Assembly (NCBI GenBank): GCA_001730095.1
Contig: MDLF01000074.1
Coordinates: 1 to 64,000, forward strand
DNA from: Rhodobacteraceae bacterium (ex Bugula neritina AB1)
GTDB lineage: Bacteria > Pseudomonadota > Alphaproteobacteria > Rhodobacterales > Rhodobacteraceae
Length of the DNA: 64,000 bases
Reading direction: 5' to 3'
Below, piece by piece: positions 1 through 56,767 of this stretch. Below the pieces are notes generated by a model that did no database searches, was not told where the DNA came from, and saw only the letters and a list, made by a program, of their open reading frames with translations. Made by a program: the position numbers and the translations under genes. Position 1 is the stretch's first letter. Every line of letters starts with the position of its first letter.

Positions 1-54
1 ACCATAGCGACCGCGGCGTGCAATACGCAGGCGGAGAATACCGCAAATTGCTTA
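1..54 (+). pseudogene. IS3-family transposase (orfB/rve integrase) fragment, cut by the window edge and by an insertion
   Basis: Reading from base 3, the frame gives HSDRGVQYAGGEYRKLL. This is the motif around the second catalytic Asp of IS3-family OrfB (HSDRG.QYA...Y..LL). The frame stops exactly where the next element begins at base 55, and no recognisable continuation is found after that element ends at 977. It is therefore a remnant interrupted by insertion. Only 17 residues are visible, so the IS group cannot be given. Confidence 0.6.
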
Positions 55-196
55 GGGTCTGGACTCATTGAGTTTCAAAGCCAGTAGATGACGAGAGCGG
101 CAAGTGCGATAGCTGACAGGAAGACTTTGGGGCAACGGTCGTACCGGGTTGCGACGCGCCGCCAGTCTTTGAGCCTGCCAAACATGATCTCGCATC

Positions 197-238
197 ACTG
201 CCCGGCAGTGCATTGCGCAGCAATGTCACGAGAGGGGC
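197..238 (+). repeat. 40-bp palindromic element, copy 1
   Basis: This insert in the transposase gene carries the core GCATTGCGCAGCAATGTC, whose centre can fold as CATTGC-GCA-GCAATG. It matches about 35 of 40 positions of the copy at 525-564, which lies in the opposite orientation. This copy also holds a second small inverted repeat formed by CACTGCC and GGCAGTG. Confidence 0.7.
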
Positions 239-524
239 GGTTCCGGCGTTTGTAGCGGCGCTTATCGTATTTCACCGGTTTCTTTCGCTGTCTCCGGCCT
301 GGGATGCAGGCACGTATCCCTTTGTCTTTCAAAGCGTCTCTGAACCAGTCGGCGTCGTAGCCACGGTCCCCGAGCAGCCAGTCGACATCTGGCAGGCTGC
401 TGAGCAGCGCCCGTGCGCCGATGTAATCGCTGACCTGACCGGCGGTGACGAACAGGTTCAGCGGTCGGCCGTGACTGTCGCAAATAGCGTGCAGCTTGGT
501 GTTCATCCCACCCTTGGTTCGCCC

Positions 525-564
525 CCTCTCGGGACATTGCTGCGCAATGCCCTGTCGGGCAAGG
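525..564 (-). repeat. 40-bp palindromic element, copy 2 (inverted relative to copy 1)
   Basis: This segment has the same core as 197-238, read on the opposite strand. It sits between the transposase codons for RGRLI and GRTKGG, which are normally adjacent in the IS427 group, so its boundaries can be inferred to within a few bases. Its length of 40 bp is not a multiple of three and shifts the reading frame. Confidence 0.7.
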
Positions 565-977
565 GATCAGGCGTCCACGCCCCCCTTTTTGACGGCCATG
601 CTGGTCGCTGTGCGGTGTGCCTTCAAATACGTTGCGTCGATCATCACGGTCTCTTCTTCGCCGTGCCCCGCGGCCAGACCCACCATCATCCGCGCGAAGA
701 TGCCCTTGTCACTCCACCGCTTCCAACGGTTGTACAGCGTCTTGTGTGGGCCGTAGGCCGCAGGGGCATCGCGCCAGCGTAAGCCATTTCGGTTGATGAA
801 GATAATCCCACTCAGAACACGCCGATCATCCACGCGGGGTTTGCCGTGGGACTTTGGGAAGAAGGGCTCAAGACGCGCCATCTGCGCGTCACTTAACCAG
901 AAAAGATCAGACATGTTCACCGCTCGTTTTCGAACCGTGAATCATGCCGCCAAGTGGAAATCAATGGGTCCTGACCC

Positions 978-1387
978 TAAAGACCGCCGCCTGCACGGTG
1001 AACACGAAGGTATGAGACCGAAAACTGGCTGCCTTGGGGGAGACCGGGCTTGGTGTGCATTCCTATGATGGCGCGCATTTTCTGGCCGTATGCCTGTGCG
1101 CAAACACCTAGCTGTTTCTGCGCTGGCGCAGGGTTGCGCTAGCTGCATGGCTGCATTGCCCTTAGCACCGAGGTAAGTGTGAAGAGCTTCACATAAACGC
1201 CTGACCATAGGCGTATTTCCGCAAATCAAAACCTGCCATCGGCAAAAAACCGCCTATGCAATACGGCTGAATTCGGCGCCGTTCTTTCAACCCTCATGGA
1301 GCTGGAAATCGCATGTTAGCCAAATTCCCGGCACTGCTCTCAGGGATGGAGAGGGACAGCGCCGACGGAACAGGAGACTCAAAAATA
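978..1387. other. Intergenic region upstream of the porin, no gene seen
   Basis: This 410-base stretch lies between the right end of the IS element and the porin start. No frame shows recognisable protein homology and the IS3 transposase does not resume here. It presumably holds the porin promoter and leader. I could not identify convincing -35/-10 boxes. Confidence 0.5.
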
Positions 1388-56109: not shown

Positions 56110-56290
56110 GCGGAACGGCAGCGCTCCCGCGCCTGCGGGGGATCAGCAGTCTGATCCCCCTGGCAGCCTTGGGCATGGCAGCGCGCGTTCCGCGCGCTGC
56201 GCGCCGCCCGGTAGGGCGGCGCCGGGCCCAACAGTGAGGGCCGTGCCCGTCAGGGCGGGGGCAGAACTGGCGGGAGCGCTTCGCCCCAAT
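56110..56290 (-). repeat. GC-rich intergenic repeat, copy C, with additional palindromes
   Basis: On the minus strand AAGCGCTCCCGCC is followed by TGTTGGGCCCGGCGCCGCC, the same two blocks as copies A and B. Additional palindromes (GGGGGATCAG with CTGATCCCCC, and GCGCGCGTTCCGCGCGC) lie beside it. The whole gap between DUF455 and bcp is of this kind. Confidence 0.55.
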
Positions 56291-56305
56291 CCTGCTGTGC
56301 CGGTT

Positions 56306-56767
56306 TCAGAGGGCGCGGACCGCTTCCAGCACCTCTGCTGCGTGGCCGTCGACCTTTACCTTGCGCCAGACCCGGGCAATCCGACCATCGGCGCCGATCA
56401 GGAAAGTGGAGCGCTCGATGCCCCAGTGTTTCTTGCCGTACATGCTCTTTTCGGCCCAGACGCCATAGTCCTCGCAGACGGTGCTGTCTGCATCCGACAA
56501 CAGCGGCGTGGTCAGCCCGTGTTTGGCGGTAAAATTCTCATGCTTCTTCAGACTGTCCTTGGAAATCCCGAAAACGTGAGCGCCTGCATCGGCGAATGCC
56601 TGCAAAGTCTCTGAAAAGGCGATGGATTCTTTGGTGCAGCCGGGCGTATTGTCGCGGGGATAGAAGAACAGCACCACAGGCGCGCCTGTGAGGCTGGATA
56701 ATGTGACCTCTCCGCCGCCGCCGCGGGGCAGGGTAAAGGAAGGGGCGGGATCTGAAATGTCGAGCAT
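56306..56767 (-). CDS. bcp: Thiol peroxidase of the Bcp/PrxQ family
   Basis: This 153-residue peroxiredoxin reduces peroxides. The peroxidatic Cys44 is in NTPGCTKES. The PrxQ resolving Cys five residues later is missing (Ile49 position), and Cys98 (STVCEDYGVW) is the only other Cys, so the enzyme may be 1-Cys or atypical. ATG 56767 has AGGAG upstream. It is divergent from the large AsmA-like gene with a 50-base gap. Confidence 0.93.
   Translation of the reverse strand: MLDISDPAPSFTLPRGGGGEVTLSSLTGAPVVLFFYPRDNTPGCTKESIAFSETLQAFADAGAHVFGISKDSLKKHENFTAKHGLTTPLLSDADSTVCEDYGVWAEKSMYGKKHWGIERSTFLIGADGRIARVWRKVKVDGHAAEVLEAVRAL

Follow-up and report, generated by a model that had tools for sequence, protein, structure and literature searches.

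Small mobile palindromes with a strong preference for insertion sequence genes in Rhodobacterales

The window (the whole stretch of 64,000 nucleotides that was analysed) carries an IS element of the IS5 family, IS427 group, whose transposase gene is interrupted by two short palindromic segments (Table 1). Both segments are confirmed as true insertions. IS copies of Salipiger, Marinovum and Paracoccus show the exact empty sites without target duplication, and the IS copy on contig C99 of the same genome lacks the second insert and represents an internal empty site. Element 1 lies 3' of ATC, at the Arg codon that precedes Ile-Glu in R-N-R-I-E-I-M-F-G. In the Leisingera NJS204 copy its 41 nt account for the entire net gain. 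The window copy has an extra base, which brings the net gain to 42 and keeps the phase, with an in-frame TGA present. Element 2 follows CTGATC immediately past the orfA stop and breaks the frame. Alignment reveals just two further differences in the orfB end piece, one of 1 nt at element 1 and one of 10 nt at the 3' end. The open reading frame adjoining the IS (1313-2506) resembles, by eye, an outer-membrane porin.

The first-pass annotation had recognised two true insertions in opposite orientations in this gene, and both the insertions and their orientation stand, with the exact ends corrected to those of Table 1. The gene has indeed been hit twice, but the pair is not private to it: both inserts are found at identical places in a second IS copy of the genome (C52) and in the Leisingera NJS204 copy. 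Two further points need qualifying. Element 1 lies next to the Glu of the Y(2)R(3)E(6)K signature, not on it, and the 290-bp segment between the elements, which had been thought able to flip between their inverted arms (199-237 and 523-561; 39 nt, 92% complementary, spacing 285 nt), was not found inverted in any of the IS copies aligned.

Table 1. The interrupted IS element of the window and its parts
Feature	Position	Strand	Basis
Host IS, IS5 family / IS427 group	52..980	(-)	homology to plasmid IS5 family transposase
Terminal inverted repeats of the host IS, about 20 bp	52-71 and 961-980		read by eye
Hairpin element 1 (F1 family), 41 nt	197..237	(+)	empty site in relatives; covariance model match 192-238, E 1.9e-12
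Hairpin element 2 (F1 family), 40 nt	525..564	(-)	empty site in C99 and relatives; covariance model match 522-568, E 1.9e-13
orfA part of the transposase (MSDLFWL ... KKGGVDA), open	567..920	(-)	alignment to uninterrupted Salipiger copy
Middle of orfB (RTKGGMNTKLHA ... RRNR), flanked by both elements	238..524	(-)	sequence and alignment
End of orfB (EIMFGRLKDWRR ... VIYWL), severed by element 1	75..196	(-)	read from sequence

The core shared by the two inserts, CATTGCGCAGCAATG, is not limited to this gene: the genome contains eight exact occurrences in all and eight more with one mismatch, two of which we judge to be chance matches; the reversed pattern, used as a control, gave none. An alignment and a covariance model were built from 13 copies of this genome. 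In this alignment 97.4% of the stem cells are paired, both partners of six pairs have changed, and none of 500 shuffles attained the observed covariation score; template-switch correction of palindromes can be an alternative source of such pair covariation. The elements, referred to here as the F1 family, are roughly 35-46 nt long and consist of a conserved 5' part (C-R-YTGCCCGGCAG), a variable paired stem-loop and a conserved 3' part (GAGAGGGG), with the consensus CATCCACTGCCCGGCAGGGCATTGCGnAGCAATGTCCCGAGAGGGG for the copies of this genome. Among 160 distinct junctions there are 113 different variable cores, and these are predicted to fold with a mean energy of -11.1 kcal/mol, compared to -3.8 for shuffles. 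A mobile small palindrome, as had been proposed from the window, is supported. No known RNA family was matched by the elements at the five loci searched. The hairpin family is real and apparently undescribed: a text search, with most subscription papers outside its scope, listed no paper that describes it in its title or the opening of its abstract, and two core strings occurred in none of the papers searched.

The covariance model detects at least 35 copies in this genome at E < 0.07, followed by a gap to 0.6, when the best 150 of 4647 candidates are scored; a decayed copy at C58:5173 lies outside this list of 35. As 150 candidates were scored per genome, the copy numbers given here for all genomes are lower bounds. 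Among the 25 genomes searched, all 16 of the genus (this one included) were matched at E <= 0.01, with 1 to 104 matches each, the numbers being at least 104 in G002, at least 91 in G009 and at least 21 in G007; the sole match in G008 (E 0.009, in a helix-turn-helix gene) is probably due to chance. None of the nine genomes from other families of the class was matched. Matches were found in 105 of 72,556 plasmid records, of which the 60 listed are from Rhodobacterales genera, and in at least 119 stretches of a GTDB scan, where nearly all of the 80 listed titles are Rhodobacterales, the exceptions being Labrenzia, Rhizobium straminoryzae and a Rhodospirillales MAG. Isolated phages contributed partial and weak matches in 2 of 50,697 records, none covering 80% of the element. 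The element, widespread among marine members of the order, has been found almost exclusively in Rhodobacterales.

Within these genomes the hairpins reside mostly in IS genes, a preference far stronger than the first-pass annotation had guessed. In this genome, 34 of the 35 copies are located in IS genes, labels which were read from the peptides by eye with Pfam tallies as an aid; the hosts are IS66, IS5/IS427, other IS5 types, IS3, IS30 and IS1182-like elements, and the lone copy elsewhere is flanked by a GDP-mannose dehydratase-type gene on one side and a gene of the YdjM type on the other. When 125 matches from this genome, its relatives and two plasmids were sorted into 78 site groups, the flank peptides (150 of 156 were run) belonged mostly to Pfam transposase families, and an IS21 helper, IS91-type and integrase domains were also present among the 25 of 47 families listed. 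IS family names that go beyond Pfam domain names are presumptive assignments. In a clade-wide blastp test, for which the IS library was built from element contexts, an IS-context flank was detected for 88 of 131 copies and for 11 of 289 random positions taken from the same stretches more than 2 kb from an element (Fisher 1e-44). For 43 clade contexts left unlabelled, 95 of 160 candidate peptides were run through Pfam, with four contexts having no peptide in the run, and Pfam and reading by eye, with Pfam tallies again only aiding the eye, added 27 copies in IS256, IS6, IS481, IS630, IS110, ISL3 and other elements. Taken together, 115 of the 131 clade-wide copies are in ISs (blastp, Pfam and eye), and about ten IS families act as hosts.

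The remaining 16 copies have no visible IS gene alongside and comprise one in a RelE-type gene, copies in intergenic places, unassigned cases, one copy whose contig is very short and one match that is probably due to chance. F1 elements were seen in a RelE-type toxin-antitoxin gene at L231:1345-1383 and L342:1472-1510. In addition, three contigs of a viral collection (L340, L344 and L345) contain a short F1 form inside phage DNA methylase genes, identified as such by eye, in which the reading frame is kept; L340 and L345 share one insertion site. The hosts are thus mostly, not only, ISs.

Across 160 distinct junctions, the element is mostly preceded by NRTC, with C at position -2 in 98%, and the signal in the 3' flank amounts to at most 0.27 bits. 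The four bases 5' of C-R-YTGCC are most commonly CATC, CGTC, GATC, CATG or TGTC (CATC 46, CGTC 23, GATC 11 and TGTC 8 of the 160). At the IS427 sites examined, RTC is already there before insertion and therefore belongs to the target, and no target duplication was found at the empty sites of IS427 and the other ISs compared. As the NRTC target is so short, it does not by itself explain the preference for ISs. Both orientations relative to the host gene occur (22 to 30, with 26 not assigned). The net length is not a multiple of three in 11 of the 13 site-and-variant combinations measured against an empty site; in-frame cases are the three phage methylase copies and one 39-nt insert in an IS3 element.

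The same nucleotide has been struck repeatedly in diverged ISs, in some cases at or within one or two codons of an Asp or Glu; these residues at or near the recurrent sites we take to be catalytic. In one IS5-type, the insertion point is identical to the nucleotide (L-V|D-S-T-G) in 14 of the 16 members of a site group, and by our own grouping five hairpin (stem) types are present among them. In IS427, four variants are found at site 451, which is occupied by element 2 in the window, three at site 378 (M-I|D-A-T), and a single one, with up to 4 differences, at site 739, which is occupied by element 1. On a FastTree tree of 22 IS427 copies, in which the deep nodes are weak, the occupied state requires at least four changes for site 739, at least five for one site-451 variant and at least five for site 378.

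In diverged pairs of IS427 copies that share both the insertion site and the variant, 46-66% of the silent sites differ, but only 0-4 of the 40-41 hairpin bases. Third-position divergence near sites 739 and 451 does not dip toward the insert, which makes conversion with flanking homology unlikely, and on this ground spread by gene conversion was set aside. The simplest reading of these sequence comparisons is that the ISs diverged uninterrupted and that the hairpins would have arrived later, repeatedly and at the same places. Leaving aside two pairs, one near-identical and one close, dN/dS is 0.04-0.12 in the diverged interrupted pairs and 0.03-0.06 in uninterrupted pairs; we take the low values of the interrupted pairs to reflect divergence that preceded insertion, although they would also agree with genes that function despite the interruption. 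A 1-nt deletion is present even in two of the four reference copies without inserts. The counts for close pairs are small, and sums across copies count shared changes repeatedly: 13 replacing versus 3 silent differences for the IS427 copies of G009, a ratio of 0.36 and two stops for G005 versus NJS204, 0 replacing and 2 silent differences for the IS3 copies of G009, 1 replacing and 0 silent for the G002 copies, and no differences for the IS66 and D. shibae close pairs.

Interrupted ISs occur in multiple copies, and several of them hold three to five hairpins. In G003, eight IS3 copies with two elements each are 100% identical over a 350-nt probe that includes the hairpin; no uninterrupted kin was found with this probe, and no further defect was seen in the copy that was read. 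These copies make the strongest argument for an interrupted IS that still functions; they may be active by themselves, or the master copy may have been lost. Their ratio of 0.10 was considered as a sign of a functional interrupted gene and rejected as an artefact of one 43-nt tract. The eight copies (L143-L146, L148, L154, L159 and L164) form two haplotypes that differ by 9 changes in this tract, a very short conversion-like patch located 429-471 nt past the start of the first element and about 12 nt beyond the second hairpin.

An IS5-type of G002 is present in eight copies that are about 100% identical over the probe, seven of them full length, with about five hairpins each. All seven copies examined contain lesions outside the hairpins (a 1-nt deletion in five, a different frame break in two), and the eighth does not include the region. 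L178 and L190 on the one hand and L139, L140, L142, L184 and L196 on the other represent two differently broken lineages, each multi-copy. Similarly, five IS427 copies at different places in G009 share a 2-nt deletion outside the hairpins, a sixth being without that part. Because of these frame lesions the copies of G002 and G009 can hardly be autonomous, which points to mobilisation in trans; interrupted ISs still multiply, probably in trans. On the D. shibae plasmid pDSHI04 a two-hairpin IS427 copy is found three times (about 2480-2833, 56261-56614 and 65155-65508; L094/L099), in stretches without listed genes.

That small mobile palindromes exist with an extraordinary preference for IS genes is well supported. 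We consider it probable that they are non-autonomous mobile hairpins of Rhodobacterales, which enter IS genes overwhelmingly, would silence them and would move in trans. The hairpin enters DNA precisely, mostly 3' of NRTC, in either orientation and without target duplication; the IS copy struck would thereby be silenced. Interrupted IS copies might keep moving by means of transposase supplied in trans and would carry their hairpins to new places and new hosts, where further hairpins could gather. The enzyme that moves the hairpin would be encoded elsewhere and would act on the hairpin at the level of DNA, as the mixed orientation and the almost signal-free 3' flank suggest. No such enzyme was found, and mobilisation in trans is put forward as an inference.

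Several other explanations are conceivable. The view that the two segments are normal components which this IS has always had deserves practically no credence: they are common to two IS copies here and one in Leisingera NJS204, but uninterrupted copies are present in four other records and the same hairpins occur in unrelated IS families, so that empty sites and other hosts refute this reading. Alternatively, the interrupted transposases might work, if the hairpin were skipped during translation, spliced from the transcript or, in a fraction of the cells, excised precisely from the DNA. The multiple copies of interrupted ISs, some with several hairpins, would be consistent with this, as would the eight G003 IS3 copies, identical over the probe, in which no lesion was seen besides the two elements, and also the fact that 10 of 18 interrupted IS427 rows are free of coding indels, leaving aside the elements and minor differences next to them or at the 3' end, although two of these ten have in-frame stops. 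We nevertheless think that working transposases are quite improbable. A strand-specific RNA mechanism would hardly allow both orientations, some recent interrupted pairs show relaxed change, the low ratio of the G003 IS3 copies is artefactual, and the multi-copy ISs of G002 and G009 have further frame lesions. Moreover, the stems vary widely between sites but are nearly constant for a given site and variant, a pattern more in keeping with recent arrival than with long residence under constraint. An unlikely explanation, to which we nonetheless give some weight, is a homing-like spread, in which a given variant would be steered, by a guide or in a manner similar to reverse splicing, to its own site in a particular IS family. 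ISs would then serve as hosts because they are most often present as many diverged copies per cell. The occurrence of one variant at site 739 in eight IS427 copies and of one at site 451 in six, on separate branches, would agree with homing, as would flanks that are diverged right to the insert without a co-conversion dip. However, what appears to be the site-451 variant is also located at site 710 in L341, several variants, and even members of a second hairpin family (see below), may occupy a single site, and the deep nodes of the tree are weak.

There is very little to recommend the notion that the hairpins are REPs moved by a REP-associated transposase (RAYT), as the first-pass annotation had surmised, or kin of the alphaproteobacterial CGTC-tagged REPs. 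Size, hairpin structure and the lack of target duplication agree with it, and the 5' bases CATC, CGTC, GATC and TGTC recall the CGTC tag (PMC3733652). However, none of the 16 genus genomes encodes a RAYT over the cut-off, for which reason mobilisation by RAYT was dismissed, and the GTAG tetranucleotide is absent from the 5' foot in the 160 junctions. One or more Y1_Tnp matches were obtained for this genome, G003, G004, G006, G009 and G015, and none for G002 or G007 with their at least 104 and at least 21 element matches; the sole Y1 gene found in this genome belongs to an IS200 (L047, C54:32615-32974), which has its own, different 5' hairpin. The GTAG and CGTC superfamilies of REPs are described as hairpins of 20-40 nt with one asymmetric end (PMC3733652, PMC8266576). 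CGTC REPs are described there as commonest in alphaproteobacteria, with a stem that starts with A-T and a CCA tail, and REPs as lying mostly between genes, CGTC repeats beside transposase genes being regarded as fortuitous (PMC3733652). Compared with these descriptions, the hairpins differ in their stem rules and tail (CATCCACTGCCCGGCAGGGCATTGCGnAGCAATGTCCCGAGAGGGG shows neither an A-T start nor a CCA tail), in the absence of RAYT from the 16 genus genomes and in their intragenic residence (34 of 35 in IS genes); in contrast to the tag of CGTC REPs, which is part of the repeat, the RTC already stands in the uninterrupted IS427 targets that were examined, and CGTC precedes 23 of 160 elements.

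The likely non-autonomous mobile hairpins share individual features with several other known systems. No resident IS that could be a parent of the MITE type was recognised in the loci retrieved, and target duplication, another mark of MITEs, does not accompany the hairpins at the empty sites. Solitary 5' halves lacking a 3' end close by were considered in these loci as possible ends of a parent; those inspected looked like complete or decayed elements or like chance matches. Elements of the IS200/IS605 type, which use HUH Y1 transposases, insert 3' of a short target, carry a hairpin and produce no target duplication. The hairpins are similar to them in having NRTC on their 5' side, no target duplication and a nearly signal-free 3' flank. 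RPEs insert in frame in ordinary genes. In a review, these repeats of Rickettsia are described as palindromic, mobile and located inside protein genes, with a length of 105-146 bp (PMC2229807). Measured against this account, the hairpins resemble RPEs in being palindromic and in protein genes, and the three phage methylase copies keep the frame, so that the RPE likeness put forward in the first-pass annotation holds for those three; the hairpins are, however, shorter, usually break the frame and are mostly found in genes of mobile elements.

The nearest precedent, albeit a looser one, is RUP of Streptococcus pneumoniae, which the same review describes as a small non-autonomous repeat in more than six IS families that inactivates transposases (PMC2229807). 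RUP is 107 bp long, has terminal inverted repeats, uses TA target sites like IS630-Spn1 and has 108 intergenic occurrences, and the possibility that it keeps transposase genes in check is raised as a question in the review (PMC2229807). Both RUP and the hairpins break ISs of many families. In contrast to RUP as portrayed there, the hairpins are about 35-46 nt long, make no target duplication, have no parent IS that was found and are mostly in IS genes. The translational bypass inserts of Magnusiomyces mitochondria are likewise short, frame-breaking and present at many places in coding genes (PMC5009743). Unlike these, the hairpins show no evidence of bypass, occur in both orientations and are mostly in mobile genes.

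A second hairpin family (F2) was found in the same ISs, at L131 and L199 (G009), L142 (G002), L117 and L335. Its elements, of which a handful of examples define the family, are about 43-50 nt long and have the ends AGTGA-GG and GAAC around another variable hairpin. It is conceivable, though rather doubtful, that the two belong to a clade-wide homing-like superfamily of at least F1 and F2, which would specifically seek the transposase genes of many unrelated IS families at recurring sites, including catalytic codons, and act as a natural brake on ISs, with the specificity provided by a trans factor or by the variable hairpin. We know of no general bacterial device for locating and disrupting ISs that differ in their chemistry. 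Residence mostly in IS genes and recurrence at one nucleotide, sometimes at a catalytic codon, make the question whether a parasite of parasites restrains ISs directly testable. The hairpins may also account for some of the transposase pseudogenes and truncated open reading frames of Rhodobacterales, and may provide ready markers of IS history. In one case, an F2 element occupies about the site that holds an F1 element in a homologous IS.
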